A stretch of 64,000 bases of DNA, from NCBI GenBank assembly GCA_022824315.1, contig JAJEAC010000035.1, positions 1 through 64,000 on the forward strand, read 5' to 3'. Of this stretch, positions 8,372-23,279 are shown piece by piece. Origin of the DNA: Silicimonas sp. Lineage in GTDB: Bacteria > Pseudomonadota > Alphaproteobacteria > Rhodobacterales > Rhodobacteraceae. The translations under genes were made by a program, and so were the position numbers. The notes beneath the pieces are model-generated. The model did not search any database and was not told where the DNA came from. It saw only the letters and a program-made list of their open reading frames with translations. The stretch's first letter is position 1; each line of letters opens with the position of its first letter.

Positions 8372-8653
8372 TCTCCTCAATCTGATCAAGATCATCTGGA
8401 GCGACCTCAAGATTGGCCGGGAGGAAGGTCAACCACTCCCGAGTGCGGTCGTCCGGAAAGGCGTGGTCCGGCAAGTGCCCAGGACAAAAGCTCTGGAAAT
8501 TGTCGAGATCGCCAAGTTCCAAGGAGGAGAAGCCAGCGACCCGGGCAGCCCGTGACTTTGTCGCCGTGAATTCCGCTCGTAGTCGGTGCCGACCGACAGA
8601 GTTGCGCCCGTCCACGAACTTCCTAGGTTGGGGCGACCGACTTGGAGGGACAA

Positions 8654-10567
8654 ATGACGGAAGGCCCAAGACGCGAACTCGGCGTATGCTATTATCCGGA
8701 GCACTGGCCCGAAGAGGTCTGGGCCGACGACGCCCGCCGGATGGCCGAGTCGGGGCTGTCCTGGGTGAGGATCGGGGAGTTTGCATGGTCGAGGCTCGAA
8801 CCCCAGCCGGGCAAGCTGGATTTCGAATGGCTTGACCGGGCCGTCGAGACATTGGGGCAGGCGGGTCTCAAGGTTGTCCTTGGAACACCCACGGCGACAC
8901 CGCCGCGATGGATGCTCACCCGCCATCCTGACATGGTCGCACTCGACGACAAGGGTCGGCCGCGCGGTTTCGGTTCGCGGCGGCACTACTGCTTCTCGCA
9001 TGAGGGGTACCTCGAGGAATGCCGGCGCATCGTGACGCTGCTGGCCCAGCGCTACGGCAAGAACCCCCATGTTGCCGCCTGGCAGACCGACAACGAATAC
9101 GGATGTCATGAAACCGTGGTAAGCTATTCGGACGCCGCAAAGAGGAGTTTTCGGGCGTGGTGCGCCCAGCGCTACCAGTCCCCGGACGCACTGAATCGCG
9201 CCTGGGGCAACGTCTTCTGGTCAATGGATTACGCCGAATTCGATGAGATCGGGCTTCCGAACCTCACCGTCACGACGCCGAATCCGTCCCATGTCCTCGC
9301 GTTTCGCCGCTACTGTTCCGATCAGGTCGTGCGTTTCAACCGCGCACAGGCAGACATCCTGCGCCGCTACACGGACGCGCCGTTGATCCACAACTACATG
9401 TGCCGAATCCTGTCCTTCGACCACTTTGATGTGGCGGCCGACCTCGACATTGCATCTTGGGACAGCTATCCGCTCGGCTACCTAATCGATCGCCTGGATG
9501 CAGACGAAACCGAGCAGGAGCGTTTCCTTCGCCAAGGCCATCCCGATGCCCAGGCATTCCATCATGATCTTTACAGATCCGTCGGACGGGGCCGCTACTG
9601 GATCATGGAGCAGCAGCCCGGGCCAGTGAACTGGGCCAGATGGAATGTCGCACCGCTGGACGGGATGCCGCGTCTCTGGGCTTGGGAGGCCTTCGCGCAC
9701 GGAGCCGAGGCGGTCTGTTTTTTTAGGTGGCGCCAAGCGCCTTTTGCCCAAGAGCAGATGCATGCGGGCCTTCTGCGGCCAGACGGTGCGGATGCTCCCG
9801 CAATCATCGAGGCTCGGCAACTGGCAAGCGAAATCGCCACGATGTCCGACGTCGGCACGACCAGGGCCAAGGTGGCGGTCGTGTTCGACTACGCGTCATC
9901 ATGGGCATGGGATGCGCTCCCTCAAGGTGCGGATTTCACGTATTTCGGACTGGTATTCGACACCTACAAGGCTCTTCGGCGCGCCGGGCTCTCGATCGAT
10001 TTCCTTCCAGCCGACGTCAAGTCTCTCGACGATTATGACCTCGTGTTCATTCCCGGCCTGCTGACGCTGTCCGACACCCTCAGGCTGGCGCTTGAAGCCT
10101 TCGCCGGCACGGCAATCATCGGGCCCAGAACGAACAGCAAGACGAACGAACTCGCAATTCCGGATCCGTTGCCGCCGAACCTGCCCGGTCTTGATGCGAC
10201 CGTCTCTCGCGTCGAAAGCCTGCCTCCCTTCGCCCGCGTACCCCTGGAGGGCGGCGGGAACTTTCATCGCTGGTTCGAACATCTGGAAGGTGATGCCGCC
10301 GTCACCATGGCCACCGTTGACGGTCGGCCAGCCGTCATGTCCCGTGGCAAGTTGCATTACGTGGCGGGCTGGCCGGATCAGGCGGCCTTCGATCATCTTG
10401 TTGTCGGCGCCTGCGCCGCCGAAGGGCTTGACGCCAGGACTCTGCCGGACGGCCTCCGGATCCGGGACACGGCGACACATCGCTTCGTCTTCAATTACGC
10501 GCCGGAACCCATGGACTTCGAAGGCACGACACTTCCGCCGGCGGGTGTGCACTGGCACCCGATTTGA
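8654..10567 (+). CDS. Beta-galactosidase, glycoside hydrolase family 42
   Basis: 637 residues, usual GH42 length. The N-terminal TIM barrel begins GVCYYPEHWPEEVW and carries the acid/base Glu148 in TDNEYG and the nucleophile Glu319 in WIMEQQPG. A class-I-glutamine-amidotransferase-like trimerisation domain follows (about 390-590) and a short beta C-terminal domain ends it. GGAGGG 5 bases before ATG 8654 fixes the start; an in-frame TTG at 8642 overlaps that site. There is no signal peptide, so it acts in the cytoplasm on imported galactosides. No sugar transporter is adjacent. The stop is followed by an insertion-sequence remnant. Confidence 0.93.
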   Translation: MTEGPRRELGVCYYPEHWPEEVWADDARRMAESGLSWVRIGEFAWSRLEPQPGKLDFEWLDRAVETLGQAGLKVVLGTPTATPPRWMLTRHPDMVALDDKGRPRGFGSRRHYCFSHEGYLEECRRIVTLLAQRYGKNPHVAAWQTDNEYGCHETVVSYSDAAKRSFRAWCAQRYQSPDALNRAWGNVFWSMDYAEFDEIGLPNLTVTTPNPSHVLAFRRYCSDQVVRFNRAQADILRRYTDAPLIHNYMCRILSFDHFDVAADLDIASWDSYPLGYLIDRLDADETEQERFLRQGHPDAQAFHHDLYRSVGRGRYWIMEQQPGPVNWARWNVAPLDGMPRLWAWEAFAHGAEAVCFFRWRQAPFAQEQMHAGLLRPDGADAPAIIEARQLASEIATMSDVGTTRAKVAVVFDYASSWAWDALPQGADFTYFGLVFDTYKALRRAGLSIDFLPADVKSLDDYDLVFIPGLLTLSDTLRLALEAFAGTAIIGPRTNSKTNELAIPDPLPPNLPGLDATVSRVESLPPFARVPLEGGGNFHRWFEHLEGDAAVTMATVDGRPAVMSRGKLHYVAGWPDQAAFDHLVVGACAAEGLDARTLPDGLRIRDTATHRFVFNYAPEPMDFEGTTLPPAGVHWHPI

Positions 10568-10725
10568 GCGATCATTTCATGTGGCGTCGAAGTGGTACGC
10601 AACGAAAGATCTTTCCCGGCAAGCCGTCCTGTTTCTTGCTCCGGCGATTCCGACCTTCATGGGTGTCGGCGGATTCGAAGCCGGTCCCATTTTCGGCCTG
10701 GCTGGGGACATGCAATCTGAAGCCG

Positions 10726-10832
10726 GTCTTCTGTAACAATGGTTGCCATGAAGTCCGCGGATGACGACGGCAGGAGGTGGTTCGATGAGAAGCAAGGCGA
10801 TGGAATTGGTGCTGAGCGACGAGGAGTGCGGG
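10726..10832 (+). repeat. Left copy of a 107-bp inverted repeat (IS630-type end)
   Basis: This 107-bp stretch matches the complement of 18011-18117 at most positions, including CAGGAGG, the start TTCGATGAGAAGCAAGGCG and the following GGTGCTGAGCG segment. It comprises the outer end and first codons of an IS630-type transposase gene reading inward to the aio genes. Confidence 0.85.
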
Positions 10833-11060
10833 TTTCTCGAGGGGCATGTCCGAAAGCACAAGGCGACGTAGTCGCTGTCCAACCGTTGCAGGATCATCTT
10901 TCTCCGCGCCGACGGGTTTCGAGGGAGGTCGCCGGGCGCATCGGCGTGCACGAGCACACTGTCAGTGGCGCGGGAGGTTCGCCGAGAAGCGCACCGACGG
11001 CCTGTGCCACCGTTCTGGCGTACATCGCGGCGCGGATGGCATCGATCCGCACGCATCGCA
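10785..11060 (+). pseudogene. IS630-family transposase fragment
   Basis: From ATG 10785, preceded by CAGGAGG, the frame reads MRSKAMELVLSDEE and stops at 10869-10871. Matches to an IS630-type N-terminal helix-turn-helix region continue in shifted frames (CRIIFLRADGF, then GVHEHTVS, then RFAEKRTDGL), which shows frameshifts and decay. The catalytic DDE half is missing. It lies directly upstream of aioX and is the left flank of the arsenite oxidase locus. Confidence 0.65.
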
Positions 11061-11142
11061 GCTCGATTTGTCAACGGGCCCAGGAAAGTCGCGACTCTTG
11101 CAATTGCGCAGAGCCTTTCGCTAGTGTTTGACGGGAGTGTCC

Positions 11143-11994
11143 ATGAGAAGGCGTGATTTCATCAATAGTGCTGCGGCGACAATGGCGGTGTCCTTGCCGT
11201 TTGTGGCGCGTGCCGCTGCGCCTTTCCGGTTGGGCTTGACCCCTGTGTTTCTCGACAACGATGCCCTCATCATTGACCGATTGCGCTCAAGTGTGTCAGC
11301 GGCCATGGGCGAGCCTGCCGTGCTCATTCAGCGTCGCACATATCAGGAAATCACCGCCATGCTGCTGGACGGGTCGGTCGAGGCGGCGTGGATTTGCGGG
11401 TTTCCCTATCTGCAGCATCAGGATCGGCTGACCTTGATTGGCGTGCCGCAATGGCGGGGCCGACCGCTCTATCAATCCTATTTGATCACCGGTGCCGGCG
11501 ACACCGCCAAATCTCTCGCGGATCTCAAAGGAGGAACACACGCCTTTTCGGACCCTGACAGCAATTCGGGCTATTTGGTCACGGCTTCCGATCTCGCCCG
11601 CGCCGGCAGCACGCCCGTGGAGTTCTTTGCACGCACCATATATACATATGGCCATCGCAATGTCGTCCGCTCCGTCGCAGGTGGCTTGACGCGATCCGGT
11701 AGCGTTGATGGCTATGTTTGGGAAACGCTTGCGCAAGTTGAGCCGTCGCTTACGCAGCGTACACGCGTCGTGGCCCGTTCCGAGTGGATGGGGTTTCCTC
11801 CGTTTGCGGCGCGCAAGGACCGAGCGGCCTCGGAAAGCGTTCGACGCTTCGCAACGGTCTTGAAGTCTCTTGACGCATCTGAAGTGGGGCGTGAAGTTCT
11901 CGCGTTGCTTTACCTCGACAAGATTTTGGAAGGGGAGGAGTCACTGTTCGACAGCATCAAACTTCGAATGGCAGACCTTCCTGAGCGCCGGTGA
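11143..11994 (+). CDS. aioX: AioX-like periplasmic arsenite-sensing binding protein
   Basis: 283 residues. The twin-arginine-type leader MRRRDFINSAAATMAV is followed by a PhnD/SsuA-like solute-binding fold. The mature protein has a single Cys (Cys85 in WICGFPYL), as expected for AioX, where a conserved Cys is needed for arsenite binding and signalling. ATG 11143 is chosen over TTG 11128 because it starts the leader. Its stop overlaps the GTG of the kinase gene, and kinase, regulator and oxidase genes follow in order. By family knowledge it binds arsenite in the periplasm and activates AioS. There is no ABC permease nearby, which argues against a transport role. Confidence 0.88.
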   Translation: MRRRDFINSAAATMAVSLPFVARAAAPFRLGLTPVFLDNDALIIDRLRSSVSAAMGEPAVLIQRRTYQEITAMLLDGSVEAAWICGFPYLQHQDRLTLIGVPQWRGRPLYQSYLITGAGDTAKSLADLKGGTHAFSDPDSNSGYLVTASDLARAGSTPVEFFARTIYTYGHRNVVRSVAGGLTRSGSVDGYVWETLAQVEPSLTQRTRVVARSEWMGFPPFAARKDRAASESVRRFATVLKSLDASEVGREVLALLYLDKILEGEESLFDSIKLRMADLPERR

Positions 11995-13415
11995 TCCGCA
12001 AGGCTTGGCGGGAATGTCCCGTCACTTTGCGCGTGGCCATTGCGACGGGCGCCCTGATGGTCCTTCTTGGGCTCATTGCGTCACAGCAGGTCCTTTCAAC
12101 TCTTTCCAGCCTCCAAAACGAGCGATTGCGGGAGGTGGCGCAATCGCATGTCGGCGGGCTCAAGGTCGCGCTCGGCTCCTTCGTTCTGCACAGGGATGTT
12201 TGGGAAGTCTACGACGCCTTGGATCGCGCAGGATCCGAGGGGGCCGGGGCTCGCATCCTGTTTTCGGCCGTTGCCGATGACCGCGGCAGGGTTCTGGCCT
12301 CATCGGACCCCGCGCGCGCACCGATCGACTTTGAGTTTGAGGCGCTCCTCAACGATGCGGTTCCGGTGCAAGAGGTCACTGCAAGTGAAGGCAGGAACTC
12401 CGTTCGCATCGTCGAGCCATTATTGGTGCAGGGTCGCGAAGTTGGCAGCTTGCTAACGGAACTGGATGTCAGCGACCTTTTGGCGCAACGGCGCTCCACA
12501 TCCCTGGCACTTCTGGCGGCCAACTCTGTCGCAACCTTGCTCTTGGCCCTAGCCGGGTATTGGATCGTGGCACGACTTCTGCGTCCGGTTGAACTGCTGA
12601 CAAGCCAAATGGGGGCAAGTGGCGTCGCTCCGCAGCAAATTCCTGCCGAAGACATCGCGAAGACGGACCCTGCGTTTGCACCGCTATTGCACAACTTCAA
12701 CAGCATGATCGACGCAATTGATGCCCAGCGTGAGGCAGAACGACGCTTGGCGGATCGTGAGCGCTTTGTCAGCTTGGGGCGCTTGTCGTCTTCCTTGGCG
12801 CATGAGATCAACAATCCGCTTGGGGGGTTGCTGAACGCAACAGACACCATCCGTACCTATTCGGATCGCCCTGACGTGGTCCGAAGTTCGGTCGATATCC
12901 TGGACCGCGGATTGAAACACCTGCGTGATGTCAGCCGGGCCATCCTCGAGGAAAATCGGCGGGACCGTTCAAATGCACGTCTTTCATTCGAAGATTTTGA
13001 CGACTTGAAAGTACTCTTTGAACCAGAAGCGAACAGACACGGACAGCAACTGGACTGGAACGTTGACCCTGAACGTTCGACTGCCTCTGCGTTTCCTTCG
13101 GCACCGATCCGTCAAATCGCCCTGAATTTGTTGCTCAATGCCTCTTCTGCCGCCGGCAAAGGCGGCCACGTTGGGTTTGCGGCGCACGCAAACGCCAATG
13201 GGCTGGACTTGAAAGTCACAGACAACGGACCCGGGTTCAGCGAACACGCCAGGCAGCGGCTTCTGTCCGAGACCCCCGTGGAACCGGGCGGCGGAGTTGG
13301 CCTGCGCCTGGTGCGGGAGCTTGTGAGTGAACTGGGCGGTGAGATTGCACTGGAGCGATCTGGTGATCTGACCAATATCCTGGTTCACCTTCCCAAACGG
13401 GCGCCGGACCAGTGA
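11991..13415 (+). CDS. aioS: AioS sensor histidine kinase
   Basis: 474 residues. Membrane segment near 18-38, periplasmic domain, second segment near 165-190, HAMP, HisKA with SLAHEINNPLGG (His near 268) and HATPase with NLLLNASSAA, TDNGPGF and GGGVGLRLVREL. Starts at a GTG within the end of aioX and ends in an overlap with aioR, so the three are translationally coupled. In the AioXSR system of arsenite oxidisers the kinase receives the AioX signal and phosphorylates AioR, which switches on aioBA. The gene order here matches that system. Confidence 0.9.
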   Translation: MIRKAWRECPVTLRVAIATGALMVLLGLIASQQVLSTLSSLQNERLREVAQSHVGGLKVALGSFVLHRDVWEVYDALDRAGSEGAGARILFSAVADDRGRVLASSDPARAPIDFEFEALLNDAVPVQEVTASEGRNSVRIVEPLLVQGREVGSLLTELDVSDLLAQRRSTSLALLAANSVATLLLALAGYWIVARLLRPVELLTSQMGASGVAPQQIPAEDIAKTDPAFAPLLHNFNSMIDAIDAQREAERRLADRERFVSLGRLSSSLAHEINNPLGGLLNATDTIRTYSDRPDVVRSSVDILDRGLKHLRDVSRAILEENRRDRSNARLSFEDFDDLKVLFEPEANRHGQQLDWNVDPERSTASAFPSAPIRQIALNLLLNASSAAGKGGHVGFAAHANANGLDLKVTDNGPGFSEHARQRLLSETPVEPGGGVGLRLVRELVSELGGEIALERSGDLTNILVHLPKRAPDQ

Positions 13416-14620
13416 GCTTCACCGGCCGTCACATCGTGCTTGTCGAGGACGATGCTACCATGGGCCATTCCCTTGTTCAGCGCCTTGAACTCGAAGGCGC
13501 GCGGGTTACTTGGGTCAAGCAGATGGTGCGCGGCATTTCCGCCATTCGAACACCACGTCATCCGGTTGATGCCGTCGTGTGCGACATCGGCCTTCCCGAC
13601 GGAACGGGCGAAGACATCTTGGCGGCGGTCGCCGGGACAATCACGCCCCCGCCGTTCCTGTTCATCACCGGACAGGGCGAAATTGGCCAGGCAGTCAGGC
13701 TCCTGAAGGCCGGTGCCACGGACTATCTGACCAAACCTTTCGAGTTGTCGACACTGCTCGAACGCCTGACCTCGGTATTCTCGTCAGCAATGGAGGGACA
13801 TGATCTCCCTGAGAGTGTGGGGATATCCACCCTGGCGCGCCGGCTGGAAGGCCAGATAAAGCAGGCTGCCGCAGCGGATGGCCCGGTTCTCGTCAAGGGC
13901 GAGCGAGGACTTGGAAAAATGCGCATTGCGCGCCGCCTCCTGAAATTGTCAGGCCATCCAGAGAACGGCATTTCTGAGATCAATGGCTTCGACACTTCCG
14001 GCGACCCGGACTGGCGTGAACTCGATGATGACCAGGCGCTAATTGTCTCGGGCGTCGAAAGACTGCCGGAAGAGACGCAAAGGCGATTGCTGGCCACCGT
14101 GCGCAATCCCGATCGTCGGGTGATCGTGCTTGCCGTAACTTCAGCAGAGGGTGAACTGGGCGCAGGTGGCGTTGGCGAAGACTTGTACTACGCGCTGTCG
14201 CCCGGGGAAATTGTCGTTCCACCGCTAAGGCAAAGGCCTGAAGATGCGGTGTGGTTGGCGAATAAGATCTTCAACGCGTTGAATGCCCGTCGAGCCAATC
14301 CTCTCAGCGGACTGTCTGACCTTTCCTTGACCGCGTTGCGCGAGCACGACTGGCCCGGAAACGGGCGCGAGGTTCGCTCCCGCGTGGTGCGGGCGGTGTC
14401 CGCGCCAAATGACGGTTGGGTGCACCCGGTTGACCTTTTCCCCGAGCTGGATGTGGATTCGTCGAGACTTGAAACCCTCGCGGAAGTGCGCGACGCGGCG
14501 GAACGGCGTCAGATTCAACGAGCCTTGGTTCGGACTGGTGGCCAAATGACGGAATCCGCACGTTTGTTGCGCGTCTCGCGGACCACTCTGTGGGAAAAGA
14601 TGCAAAAGCTGAATCTATGA
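13412..14620 (+). CDS. aioR: AioR response regulator, NtrC-like but lacking the sigma-54 loop
   Basis: 402 residues. Receiver domain 1-120 with acidic pair near 12-14, phospho-acceptor Asp58 in CDIGLPDG and Lys in DYLTKPF. An AAA+ domain follows (about 130-340) with a Walker A of form GERGLGKM (Ser/Thr replaced by Met). The C-terminus is a Fis-type helix-turn-helix ending TTLWEKMQKLNL. The GAFTGA loop that contacts sigma-54 is not present, and the domain is shorter than in typical AioR. Start is GTG 13412, overlapping aioS by 4 bases. By context it controls aioBA, 347 bases downstream. A sigma-54-independent mechanism is inferred. Confidence 0.88.
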   Translation: MSFTGRHIVLVEDDATMGHSLVQRLELEGARVTWVKQMVRGISAIRTPRHPVDAVVCDIGLPDGTGEDILAAVAGTITPPPFLFITGQGEIGQAVRLLKAGATDYLTKPFELSTLLERLTSVFSSAMEGHDLPESVGISTLARRLEGQIKQAAAADGPVLVKGERGLGKMRIARRLLKLSGHPENGISEINGFDTSGDPDWRELDDDQALIVSGVERLPEETQRRLLATVRNPDRRVIVLAVTSAEGELGAGGVGEDLYYALSPGEIVVPPLRQRPEDAVWLANKIFNALNARRANPLSGLSDLSLTALREHDWPGNGREVRSRVVRAVSAPNDGWVHPVDLFPELDVDSSRLETLAEVRDAAERRQIQRALVRTGGQMTESARLLRVSRTTLWEKMQKLNL

Positions 14621-14967
14621 CCTGTGCGTGTTCGGCAATCCTAACGCACGACAAAAAGTAATTTAAAACAACTCTTTATAATCGTGCCCTTTGTTCTTGC
14701 AGCATGTCAGGCGGTGGTCGTACCGGGTTATCACGTCGCCGATCATGACAGCTCCATGCAATGATCTCTCGCGGAAGCCAAGACCGGCGGGCCGCATGCT
14801 TCTGGAATTTCGCGTCACTCCGGCGGCCTGCCACGTTCGGATTTCCGAACGGCAAGATTCTCACTTTATTTTCAGTGCCTTGTGAGCGGAATTACTTGGA
14901 TTTCTGAAATGCCATGGGCCTGGGGTCAGATTATCATGCCATTGTATGCCAAGAGGAGGACTCTTTC
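14621..14967 (+). other. aioR-aioB intergenic region
   Basis: 347 bases with no gene. AT-rich patches near 14655-14685 contrast with the host sequence. The region should contain the aioBA promoter. I find no convincing sigma-54 -24/-12 element. A perfect 7-bp dyad at 14834-14851 is the main visible signal, and GAGGAGGA (14953-14960) is the ribosome site of aioB. Confidence 0.6.
14834..14851. promoter_or_regulatory. Dyad CGTTCGG-ATTT-CCGAACG, candidate operator
   Basis: A perfect 7-bp inverted repeat with a 4-base spacer, partly extended by flanking GCC/GGC, 117 bases upstream of the aioB start. It could be the AioR binding site or a small hairpin. The AioR role is inference from position. 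Confidence 0.45.
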
Positions 14968-15492
14968 ATGAGCAAAAGATGCGAGCGGCTAGTGGATGCC
15001 GGCCGTCGGCAATTCTTGCGTGGTGGTGCCGTTGCGGCGGCTGGCGCAGCTGTGGTGACGGTAGCGCCGGGCGAGGCGCAGGCCGCACCGGCAAGCGCTC
15101 AGCTCGATTACCCATCCAACAAACTCTCGAACGTGGCGGATCTGGCCGTCAACGAACCCGTGGACATCGAATACCCGGATGCCGACAGCCCTGGCGTTCT
15201 TCTGAAGCTCGGGACTGCGGTTGAAGGTGGCGTCGGCCCGGATGGCGACATTGTCGCCTATTCGGTGCTTTGCCCGCACCAGGGGTGGTTCCTGAATTAC
15301 AACGGCGACGACAAGACCTTCAACTGCCCGGGCCACTACTCGCGCTACGATGCCGAGGCCGGTGGTCAGCAGATCTGGGGTCACGCGACCCAGAACCTGC
15401 CGCAATTCACGCTTCGCGTGGCCGACAACGGCGACATCTTCGCCGAGGGCTGCAGCGACCTGATCTTCGGCCGTCCGTCGAACGTATTGTGA
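14968..15492 (+). CDS. aioB: Arsenite oxidase small subunit (Rieske 2Fe-2S)
   Basis: 174 residues. Twin-arginine leader RRQFLRGGAVAAAGAAVV (13-30) directs the folded AioBA complex to the periplasm. Rieske ligands are Cys102/His104 in CPHQGW and Cys120/His123 in CPGH. The two extra cysteines that form a disulfide in most Rieske proteins are Trp107 and Gly122 here, as in the Alcaligenes faecalis enzyme where they are Phe and Gly. The start is set by GAGGAGGA seven bases before ATG 14968. It passes electrons from AioA to a cytochrome or azurin. aioA follows after 15 bases. Confidence 0.95.
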   Translation: MSKRCERLVDAGRRQFLRGGAVAAAGAAVVTVAPGEAQAAPASAQLDYPSNKLSNVADLAVNEPVDIEYPDADSPGVLLKLGTAVEGGVGPDGDIVAYSVLCPHQGWFLNYNGDDKTFNCPGHYSRYDAEAGGQQIWGHATQNLPQFTLRVADNGDIFAEGCSDLIFGRPSNVL

Positions 15493-15507
15493 GGGGAGGA
15501 ACAATCT

Positions 15508-17961
15508 ATGGCTCACAAAAGACAAATCGACCGCCTTCCCATCCCGCCAAAGGGTGCGAAGGTTCACAATGTGACCTGTCACTACTGCATCGTCGGATGC
15601 GGATACAAGGCCTACACCTGGGATCGCAACAAGCAGGGCACGGCAACTGACAACGCTCTGGGGATCGACCTGAGCGAACAGCAAGGCGCAGATGGCACGT
15701 GGTTGAAGCCGTCCAACTACAACATCGTCAAGCAAGACGGCAAGGACGTTCATCTGGCGATCTATGCGGACCAGGATTGTGTGGTGAATTCGGGCCTCGC
15801 ATCGGTGCGTGGCGCCAGGATGGCCGAGAACCGCCCGTCGGAGGTCACCGGTACGCAGCAGCAGCGCCTGACCGACCCACTGGTCTGGAAATACGGCACC
15901 TGGGTGCCCACGAGCTGGGACGATGCGCAAGATCTTGTCGCGCAAGTGACAGCCCGCGCGATCAAGGAAGGCTCGGAGGACGATCTGGTCGTGTCGATGT
16001 TCGACCACGGCGGTTCCGCCGGTGGCTACGAGAACACCTGGGGCACCGGCAAGCTCTATTTCCAGAGCATGAACATCAAGCACTGCCGGATTCACAACCG
16101 TCCTGCCTATAACTCCGAGGTCCACTCCTCCCGCGACATGGGCGTTGACGAACTGAACTACGGCTACAAGGACTATCAGGTCACCGACACAATCGTGATG
16201 TGGGGCGCCAACCCGCTGGAATGCCAGACCAACGTGTTTCTCAATCACATGAAGCCGGGCATGCAGAACGGCGCCAAGTTCATTCTCGTCGATCCGCGTC
16301 GCACGGTCACGCTCAATGCCGCCGAAGACATCGCGGGCACGGAAAACACCCTGCACCTTGCGATCAATGAAGGCACGGACATGGCGCTGGCCAATGCCAT
16401 CATGACGATCATCGTCGACAATGGCTGGACCGATGACGCGTACGTCGCCAACAACACCTTCCAGGACGGCATCGCGGTAGAGCAGGATGCGGCGCATCCG
16501 GCGGCGCTTGGCAGCCTGGATGAGGCGATGAAGTCGATCCGCATGTCGGCGGAGCAAGCTGCCGAAATTTGTGGCGTGTCCGCAGATGACATTCGCAAGG
16601 CGGCTTCCTGGATCGCGGAACCCATGGGTGGTGCGCGCGCGAAATGCATCATTGGCTACGAAAAGGGTGTCATTTGGGGCAACGACAACTACCGCACCGT
16701 TGGCTCGCTGGTGAACATCGGATTGGCGACAGGCAACATCGGCCAGGAAGGCGGCGGCGTCTGCCGGATGGGCGGCCACCAGGAAGGCTACTTCCGTCCG
16801 CCTGAGCCCTTCGTCGGCCGCCCGCCCACTTACATTGACCAGCTCCTGATCAATGGCGGCGGAAAGGTTCACCACATTTGGGCCTGCGACCACTACAAGA
16901 CCACCTTGAACATTACCGAGTTCAAGAAGGCGTACAAGAAGCGGGCCGACATGGTGAAGGACGCGATCGACGCTGCTGCAGGCGGCAGCCGCGAGGACAT
17001 GATCAACGCCATCGTGGATGCAGTGAATGCAGGCGGCCTGTTCGTGGTCGACGTTGACGTGATCCACACCAAGATCGGCCAGAATGCCCACGTGATCCTG
17101 CCAGCGGTGGAAGCGAACGAGATGAACCTCACCTCGATGAACGGTGAACGTCGTTTGCGCCTGTCAGAAAAGTACATGGACGGACCCGGCGTCGCGATGC
17201 CGGACTGCCTGATCGCGGCTGGCATGGCCCAAAACATGGAACGCGTGCTGCGCGCCATGGGCGACGATGCTTATGCCGACAAGTTCATGGGCTACGACTG
17301 GGAGACCGAGGAGGACGCCTTCATGGATGGCTACAACTCGGGCAACCCCGAAGTGACCTATGACCGTTTGCGCGCCATGGGTAACAACGGTGTTCAGGAA
17401 CCGGTGGTCGGCCATGAAAACGGCCAGCTGATCGGCACCGAGCGGCTCTATGCCGACGGCAAGTTCACCCGTCATGGCCGCGACGACATGAAGGCCCTGT
17501 TCTGCGCCTCCGGTTGGCGTGGCTGGCAAGCGGAAGGCAAGGCCGACGAGCAGGCCGCGCATCGGTTCTGGGTCAACAACGGCCGTGCGAACATCTTCTG
17601 GCAGAACTTGTTCCTCGACCAAGCCAATGACTTCGTCATGGACCGCTATCCCTATCCGTTCGTCGAGATGAATCCCGACGATATGGCGGATCTGGGTGTC
17701 GGCGCCGGAGACCTGGTAGAGCTCTACAATGGCAACGGTGCAACCCAGGCCATGGCCTATCCGACGCCGACCGCGAAACGCAACCAGGTGTTCATGGTGT
17801 TCGCGCACCCGAACGGGGCGCAAGGCAACATCATCAACCCCGGCGTGAACGAGCTGGTGCTTCCCGACTACAAGCACTGCTGGGCCGACATCCGCAAGAT
17901 CTCGGATGCGCCGGCTTCGGTAAAAGGCATCTCGATGAAGTCGAAGGAGTACACGGCTTAA
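15508..17961 (+). CDS. aioA: Arsenite oxidase large subunit (Mo-bisMGD, 3Fe-4S)
   Basis: 817 residues, in the normal range for AioA. Cys24, Cys27 and Cys31 in CHYCIVGCGYKAY ligate the 3Fe-4S cluster; a Ser near 99 (LASVRG) stands where a fourth Cys would be in 4Fe-4S relatives. The molybdopterin-oxidoreductase domains and the C-terminal dinucleotide-binding domain follow. It has no signal peptide and is exported with AioB. It oxidises arsenite to arsenate for detoxification or energy. A GAGGGGAGGA site precedes ATG 15508. No cytochrome c or moeA gene follows, unlike in several aio operons; instead there is a hairpin and an IS remnant. Confidence 0.96.
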   Translation: MAHKRQIDRLPIPPKGAKVHNVTCHYCIVGCGYKAYTWDRNKQGTATDNALGIDLSEQQGADGTWLKPSNYNIVKQDGKDVHLAIYADQDCVVNSGLASVRGARMAENRPSEVTGTQQQRLTDPLVWKYGTWVPTSWDDAQDLVAQVTARAIKEGSEDDLVVSMFDHGGSAGGYENTWGTGKLYFQSMNIKHCRIHNRPAYNSEVHSSRDMGVDELNYGYKDYQVTDTIVMWGANPLECQTNVFLNHMKPGMQNGAKFILVDPRRTVTLNAAEDIAGTENTLHLAINEGTDMALANAIMTIIVDNGWTDDAYVANNTFQDGIAVEQDAAHPAALGSLDEAMKSIRMSAEQAAEICGVSADDIRKAASWIAEPMGGARAKCIIGYEKGVIWGNDNYRTVGSLVNIGLATGNIGQEGGGVCRMGGHQEGYFRPPEPFVGRPPTYIDQLLINGGGKVHHIWACDHYKTTLNITEFKKAYKKRADMVKDAIDAAAGGSREDMINAIVDAVNAGGLFVVDVDVIHTKIGQNAHVILPAVEANEMNLTSMNGERRLRLSEKYMDGPGVAMPDCLIAAGMAQNMERVLRAMGDDAYADKFMGYDWETEEDAFMDGYNSGNPEVTYDRLRAMGNNGVQEPVVGHENGQLIGTERLYADGKFTRHGRDDMKALFCASGWRGWQAEGKADEQAAHRFWVNNGRANIFWQNLFLDQANDFVMDRYPYPFVEMNPDDMADLGVGAGDLVELYNGNGATQAMAYPTPTAKRNQVFMVFAHPNGAQGNIINPGVNELVLPDYKHCWADIRKISDAPASVKGISMKSKEYTA

Positions 17962-17986
17962 GCCGAAAACGACTTCAAGAACCCGC

Positions 17987-18008
17987 GGGCGGCCCGTCCG
18001 GGCCGCCC
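17987..18008 (+). terminator. Hairpin after aioA
   Basis: Perfect 9-bp stem GGGCGGCCC/GGGCCGCCC with loop GTCC, 26 bases after the aioA stop. There is no T tract, so intrinsic termination is uncertain. Confidence 0.5.
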
Positions 18009-18010
18009 GT

Positions 18011-18117
18011 CCCGCGCTCCTCGCCGCTCAGCACCACTTCCACCGCCTTGCTTCTCATCGAACCGCCTCCTGCGGCCGTCATCCGCAAGCGTGATGGCAA
18101 CTATTGTCACAGGAGAC
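18011..18117 (-). repeat. Right copy of the 107-bp inverted repeat (IS630-type end)
   Basis: Complement of this stretch matches 10726-10832 and contains the same transposase start (ATG complement at 18056-18058) with CAGGAGG before it. Only the first dozen or so codons remain. It points back toward the aio genes, mirror-image to the left copy. The remaining bases up to 18262 carry no gene. Confidence 0.85.
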
Positions 18118-18262
18118 CAGGACCATGACAGCCGACTAGGACGGGTGTTGACTGATCTATGACAGGCATGATCACCCTCCACTGGCCTGGCGGCGTCGGC
18201 TGCCATTGAGTCGCTTCGGCTGGCCTGCCATTGATGGACGGCACATTGTCAGGGAGCAGATC

Positions 18263-19087
18263 ATGACCAACGACGAATCCCGCCTATTCCCCCACGCGCA
18301 TCAGGACATCGAAACCGCCCGGGACGTTCCGGACACGCCACAGACAGTGTCACCCGCATACCGGCTTGCCTTCGCGGATTCCGACTTTCTCTGTCGTGAC
18401 GACCTTAGGCCAGTTCGCCTTCAACTCGAGCTTCTCAAGCCCGAGTTGCTGATGGAAGAATACGGCGTCAATTCTACCGTTGTCCTCTTCGGTGGAGCGC
18501 GCATCCCGAGTCCAGAGCAACAGGACAGAGTCGGTTCCGAGCCTCTCGCGGAACTCAGTCGGTATTACGAGGAAGCCCGAAATTTCGCCCGCATCATCAC
18601 TGAACGGTCGGCTGCAGGTTCAAGCGACGGCAAGAAGCACGTGATCGTCACTGGCGGCGGCCCGGGAGTGATGGAGGCGGGGAATCGAGGGGCAGCGGAG
18701 GCAGGTGGGGTGTCGATCGGGCTCAATATCGTGCTGCCGCATGAGCAGATGCCCAACGAGTACATCACGCCCGACCTCAATTTCAATTTCCACTACTTCG
18801 CTATTCGAAAGATGCACTTCCTGATGCGTGCAGCGGCCATCGCGGTCTTCCCCGGCGGGTTCGGCACCTTGGACGAGCTCTTCGAGACGCTGACGCTCAT
18901 TCAGACAGGGCGCATGCGGCCGGTGCCGTTCATCCTCTTTGGGAGCGACTTCTGGAAACGCATCGTCAATTGGGAAGCCCTCGCGGAGGCGGGCACGATT
19001 TCGCCGGACGATCTCGAGATCTTTCGCTTTGTCGAGACCGCTGGGGAGGCGGTGGCGGTGATGGATGGCTGGCCGCAGGACATGTAG
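18263..19087 (+). CDS. LOG family (TIGR00730) Rossmann protein
   Basis: 274 residues with the LOG signature: GGGPGVMEAGNRGA near 130-143 and PGGFGTLDE near 197-205. LOG enzymes hydrolyse nucleoside 5'-monophosphates to base and ribose 5-phosphate (cytokinin-activating or purine nucleotide salvage). ATG 18263 follows AGGGAGCAG and is preferred to TTG 18206, which lies next to the insertion-sequence end. It stands alone, without operon partners. The length exceeds small cytokinin-type LOGs and has an N-terminal extension of about 70 residues, so the exact substrate is unclear. Confidence 0.85.
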   Translation: MTNDESRLFPHAHQDIETARDVPDTPQTVSPAYRLAFADSDFLCRDDLRPVRLQLELLKPELLMEEYGVNSTVVLFGGARIPSPEQQDRVGSEPLAELSRYYEEARNFARIITERSAAGSSDGKKHVIVTGGGPGVMEAGNRGAAEAGGVSIGLNIVLPHEQMPNEYITPDLNFNFHYFAIRKMHFLMRAAAIAVFPGGFGTLDELFETLTLIQTGRMRPVPFILFGSDFWKRIVNWEALAEAGTISPDDLEIFRFVETAGEAVAVMDGWPQDM

Positions 19088-22856: not shown

Positions 22857-22911
22857 AGAAAGGGACTTACAAGGAAAGGTCTGCACCGTTCCATGTTCCG
22901 CTCTCGCGGCA

Positions 22912-22929
22912 CGACGTTGTGCATTGGCA
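22912..22929 (+). repeat. 18-bp direct repeat, copy 1
   Basis: CGACGTTGTGCATTGGCA, repeated exactly at 23039-23056, 127 bases downstream, in the dapD leader region. Confidence 0.8.
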
Positions 22930-23038
22930 AAGACGCTGAAGGCATGGAATCGTTGCCGTGGCAACAGGTGTCGGGGACTGGCGCAGCTGGACGGCGAGAG
23001 GCGTTTTCATTGGCAACCTCACTGACCCGTCAACATCG

Positions 23039-23056
23039 CGACGTTGTGCATTGGCA
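23039..23056 (+). repeat. 18-bp direct repeat, copy 2
   Basis: Second exact copy of the sequence at 22912-22929. Nothing else identifies the unit as a known element. Confidence 0.8.
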
Positions 23057-23279
23057 TGGCGACGATTGGGCGGTCGAAAGATCGAGCAGGGCGAAAGCCG
23101 ATCTGCGTCCTGCGTGATGGTCCACACGAAAGTCCGATGTTCAGGACATGTGCACCCAACCGATGAAGGTTGGGCGCTTCCCATGCATCGACCTATCTTT
23201 GCAAGCTTCGAAGAAAGCGCCGTTGCCCTCTTCCCGGACAGGAGCTATGTCGCCGACAACAGCCACGCGAGGTAATCAG

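Follow-up and report, generated by a model that had tools for sequence, protein, structure and literature searches.

A probable fossil IS630-type composite transposon carrying an arsenite oxidase locus in the genus Silicimonas

The window, a 64,000-nucleotide stretch of a Silicimonas sp. genome (G000), lies on contig C171 of a 208-contig draft, and contains aioX, aioS, aioR, aioB and aioA, all five complete and open, between two remnants of an IS630 element (Table 1). The genus is represented by eight genomes (G000 to G007), all of them fragmented drafts (120–570 contigs). Both AioA and AioB score above the curated cut-offs of their models (TIGR02693 and TIGR02694), and aioA has a dN of 0.013 and a dS of 0.17–0.18. 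The aio genes of the window genome are still under purifying selection, and the predicted AioBA presumably still oxidises arsenite. The GC content of the cluster (59.6%, versus 61.6% for the window) carries no clear foreign signal.

Table 1. Positions of the arsenite oxidase genes, insertion sequence remnants, target dinucleotides and native neighbours in the window.
Feature	Position	Strand	Evidence and remarks
GH42 beta-galactosidase, left native neighbour	8642..10567	+	Pfam PF02449, 491 bits; adjoins LOG in G004, G005 and G006
Left target dinucleotide	10724..10725		CG (TA expected)
Left IS630 remnant	10726..11006	+	5′ terminus GTCTTCTG and transposase start, truncated internally; forms the outer edge of the unit
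IS5-family end remnant, 76 bp, between IS630 remnant and aioX	about 11007..11082		77–83% to dispersed genus copies
aioX, periplasmic arsenite-sensing protein	11143..11994	+	PF12974, 139 bits; gene order as in most other aio loci
aioS, sensor histidine kinase	11991..13415	+	PF00512, PF02518
aioR, response regulator	13412..14620	+	PF00072, PF14532, PF02954; lacks GAFTGA motif
aioB, arsenite oxidase small (Rieske) subunit	14968..15492	+	TIGR02694, 187.8 bits (cut-off 95.65)
aioA, arsenite oxidase large (molybdopterin) subunit	15508..17961	+	TIGR02693, 1058.9 bits (cut-off 359.05)
Right IS630 remnant, inverted	18012..18117	-	5′ terminus GTCTCCTG and transposase start; outer end of the unit
Right target dinucleotide	18118..18119		CA; CC in G001 (TA expected)
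LOG-type (TIGR00730) protein, right native neighbour	18263..19087	+	TIGR00730, 98.8 bits

AioR of the window has no GAFTGA loop, which is needed for contact with sigma-54, and its Walker A motif is altered (GERGLGKM). The loop is likewise absent from AioR at the 17 nearest related loci checked, most of which are from Rhodobacterales and two of which belong to a single genome; several rhizobial AioR proteins retain both GAFTGA and Walker A. AioR in this lineage may activate transcription without sigma-54, as these motifs suggest. Further to the right in the window, at about 22863–23209, a dispersed repeat of ~345 bp lies between an asparaginase-like gene and dapD, with about 20 matches in G007 and several more in G002, some of them falling at the ends of contigs.

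The segments at 10725–10832 and 18011–18118 form an inverted repeat of 108 nt with 86% complementarity, the only long inverted repeat in the 9.5–20 kb region of the window. Its BLAST score is 128 bits, compared with 41 bits for the best inverted match among 100 first-order Markov sequences of the region with the same dinucleotide make-up. The start of an IS630 transposase is present in both arms, each reading inward, which bears out an earlier note on this DNA that had described 107-bp inverted copies of a transposase start facing one another. Judged by the other genus copies, the IS termini lie at 10726 and 18117 and, as in those copies, the outer edges are the terminal inverted repeats of the IS, GTCTTCTG on the left and GTCTCCTG, on the reverse strand, on the right. 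The left remnant (about 10726–11006) matches nt 1–291 of the genus IS630 at 82%, and the right remnant matches nt 1–106 at 87% and the left copy at 86%; the inverted starts lie where the earlier note had placed them, with the left remnant proving to be longer.

Both remnants derive from the same genus IS630 and both are truncated and non-functional, in keeping with the decay previously proposed for the transposase on either side. No functional transposase that could move the unit is present, both copies being truncated with no further copy in the window assembly, and for this reason the element is classed as a fossil and not as an active transposon. Both remnants have lost their inner end and any working transposase, and the ability of two paired 5′ ends to act together is therefore inferred. 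Neither the short IS630 fragments nor the IS21 fragment of G002 was recognised by Pfam. Insertion of aio into a single IS630 was rejected as an explanation, the same 5′ end being present on either side. The 76-bp IS5-family end is directly upstream of aioX in all three aio carriers of the genus (G000, G001 and G002), and its assignment comes from the transposase of the G005 copy, which matches NF033580.

Among the 147 genomes searched, copies of this IS630 type occur in all eight of the genus, and outside the genus there is a single match of 57 bp. A search for the full IS, which the earlier note had recommended, yielded nothing in the window genome beyond the two remnants, and copies across the genus; the best of these (G001:C132), which carries a 279-bp insert, defines an element of ~1182 bp that begins GTCTTCTG and finishes CAGGAGAC. 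The G001:C132 transposase has a DDE_3 domain and scores 282 bits with the IS630-family NCBIfam model NF033545 (cut-off 100). Since the 5′ end is preceded by CTA in most genus copies, and the 3′ end is followed by TAG in three of the four seen, the target is taken to be C-TA-G. The title of Tenzen and Ohtsubo (1991), as given in PMC2170065, is consistent with this, referring to an IS630-associated composite transposon and a target TA within CTAG. Plasmids searched with the IS fragment gave only ~70% matches, from rhizobial IS630 copies, and none had an aio locus above ~75–77% identity. A scan of genomes for AioA found relatives at most 78% identical, none with these IS ends, and hence no donor carrying the intact transposon was found.

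Three of the eight genus genomes carry aio, and in three others (G004, G005 and G006) GH42 is followed directly by LOG. In G000 and G001 the cluster lies between GH42 and LOG with both IS630 edges visible, G001 sharing the site, the edges and the truncation points of the window. G002 has GH42, aioXSR and aioB at the same site, on a contig that ends at the start of aioA with the right edge outside it, and a right-flank search of G002, G003 and G007 did not recover its right border. On the left of this locus, a 341-bp IS21 fragment (assigned by NCBIfam) stands in place of the left IS630 remnant together with 92 bp of the native flank. An aio locus devoid of IS traces at this site in many relatives, the pattern that the earlier note had linked to vertical descent, is not what the genus presents: both remnants persist in G001, and G002 has the IS21 fragment.

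The carriers also differ within the cluster. An apparent decayed c-type cytochrome gene lies between aioR and aioB in G002 (L030:755–1345), at a point corresponding to window 14762/14763, and has no counterpart in the window genome or G001. In G001 (L026), 1 bp is inserted into a C homopolymer of aioA, at the equivalent of window 16821, and aioR contains one stop codon; the G001 cluster may be decaying, or assembly errors may lie behind both changes.

When the native flanks of G000 or G001 are joined with one copy of the 2-bp target, G005 and G006 align through the junction without a gap. The outer ends of the IS are therefore the exact borders of the inserted DNA, and an empty site at the outer IS630 ends matches the prediction of insertion as one unit. 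The empty site joining GH42 and LOG, proposed beforehand as a check, is thus present in G005 and G006, and the suggestion that a 7.4-kb segment moved as a unit gains support from native flanks that meet precisely at the outer IS630 ends. The unit is also absent from G004, with about 70 bp lost at the junction. A TA duplication at the outer edges, the other signature looked for, is not recognisable: the left dinucleotide is CG in both the window and G001, the right one is CA in the window and CC in G001, and the empty sites have CG (G006) and AA (G005). As the right dinucleotide differs between G000 and G001, at least one target position has mutated. The absence of a recognisable TA duplication is the main reservation about the transposon reading.

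Divergence along the locus has provided insight into what followed. Identity between G000 and G001 climbs at about 10.57 kb and drops at about 20.2 kb. Within this tract the aio genes have a dS of 0.17–0.21 between the two genomes, with 0.16 in LOG and 0.17 in rlmN; on the left (HK and GH42) dS is 0.37–0.45, and to the right of rlmN it is 0.34–0.46 in six of the eight genes tested (hyp20677 to mltB), the remaining two being dnaE2 (0.24) and asd (0.26). In trees of HK and GH42, the aio-bearing G002 groups with the empty G005 at 100% support. The low dS over ~10.6–20.2 kb and the grouping of G002 with G005 indicate that the later history was not one of simple descent. Four-taxon topology tests did not discriminate, a single unrooted tree being favoured in the two regions alike, and the argument on spread rests on branch lengths and dS. 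These data suggest that homologous recombination, and not renewed transposition, probably carried the occupied locus from one species of the genus to another. Since both truncation points are shared, the IS copies had decayed before the G000 and G001 lineages acquired their common locus. The simplest account that we infer has the unit inserting a single time and the occupied region then being exchanged between species through homologous recombination.

Other histories of the locus can be set against this account. The aio genes could have entered by another route, such as homologous recombination or an integrative element, with two IS630 copies landing independently on either side at a later time. 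Fragments of IS630, IS5 and IS21 are indeed scattered across the genus, and the IS5 end to the left of aio in every carrier, together with the IS21 piece in G002, demonstrates that IS insertions and deletions have occurred there. Independent landing would, however, need both borders to have been struck exactly, with no foreign DNA outside, as both outer ends match the native junction of G005 and G006 to the base; this history is very improbable, and is largely excluded by the exact empty site. Alternatively, the element may have been ancestral to the genus and lost by precise excision in G004, G005 and G006, since loss could also explain why carriers and non-carriers are mixed together in the trees of flanking genes. 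A footprint is the usual product of cut-and-paste excision, yet footprint-free excision would be required in several lineages, G005 and G006 having no extra bases, and a dS for aio below that of the flanks fits recent sharing better than ancient presence. Ancestral presence with repeated loss is consequently an improbable explanation.

A single insertion inherited vertically by the three carriers, with strong codon constraint behind the low dS of aio, would dispense with exchange altogether, and dS does vary by gene, as the values for dnaE2 and asd between G000 and G001 illustrate. The best control is the native LOG gene, because the same gene that gives 0.16 between G000 and G001 gives 0.37–0.51 when either is compared with the empty-site genomes. 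For rlmN the corresponding values are 0.17 and 0.25–0.32, while the next genes outward jump to 0.34–0.46 between the two carriers. Vertical inheritance also sits poorly with the grouping of G002 with an empty-site genome, and is on these grounds improbable.

Together, these observations make it likely that positions 10726–18117 are a fossil IS630-type composite transposon, inserted once as a unit and later shared by recombination. In this reading, aioXSR-aioBA was flanked by two oppositely oriented IS630 copies whose 5′ ends faced outward. A transposase working on both of these ends would have moved the unit, by cut-and-paste, into a single dinucleotide between GH42 and LOG. The insertion would have happened in an ancestor within the genus; its occurrence as a unit is attested by the empty site, with the enzyme and the cut-and-paste step being reconstructed. 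Deletions then stripped away the greater part of each IS copy before the shared copy was gained by the window lineage and G001, as the common truncation points show, leaving a fixed aio locus, and homologous recombination in the flanks would later have moved the occupied locus between species, as the divergence tracts and conflicting groupings suggest. The broader proposition, in which an IS630 composite transposon brought a metabolic operon to a fixed chromosomal site a single time and the operon spread afterwards as an allele among species of the genus through flank recombination, long after mobility was lost, is plausible and on balance favoured. If so, capture by transposition and sharing by homologous recombination are two phases that can be distinguished at one locus, and the near base-exact empty site documents the entry of an aio operon into a chromosome by simple IS-mediated transposition, and not only by way of a large island or plasmid.

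Horizontally acquired aio DNA that varies among close relatives is also found in the arsenic genomic islands of Thiomonas (PMC2829063, PMC4589449). Unlike the window unit, those islands are large and carry integrases, transposases and conjugation genes, some being bordered by direct repeats of 10–112 bp, and in Thiomonas 3As no IS copies form a composite transposon (PMC2829063). Among 80 aio loci of other organisms (AioA at most 78% identical), most have the aioXSR-aioBA gene order and none has the genus IS630 within 9 kb; compared with other alphaproteobacterial aioXSR-aioBA clusters, the position between GH42 and LOG with IS630 ends is particular to the genus of the window. A literature search found no paper linking arsenite oxidase or aio with IS630. 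The IS630/Tc1/mariner family, exemplified by ISY100 (PMC2170065), resembles the genus element in its transposase family model, its short terminal inverted repeats and the TA flanks of most genus copies, but the window genome has no intact transposase and the target site in the window is not TA. The closest parallel is with IS630-associated composite transposons, which, as far as the title of Tenzen and Ohtsubo (1991, via PMC2170065) indicates, likewise have IS630-family copies bracketing a passenger and a preferred TA within CTAG, the latter also seen at most copies in the genus. Set against that title, the window unit differs in that its IS copies are truncated, its target duplication is unrecognisable and its passenger is aio, the unit being known here from sequence. 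IS630 composite transposons are an established kind of element, and the window unit is a new example, with aio as the passenger.
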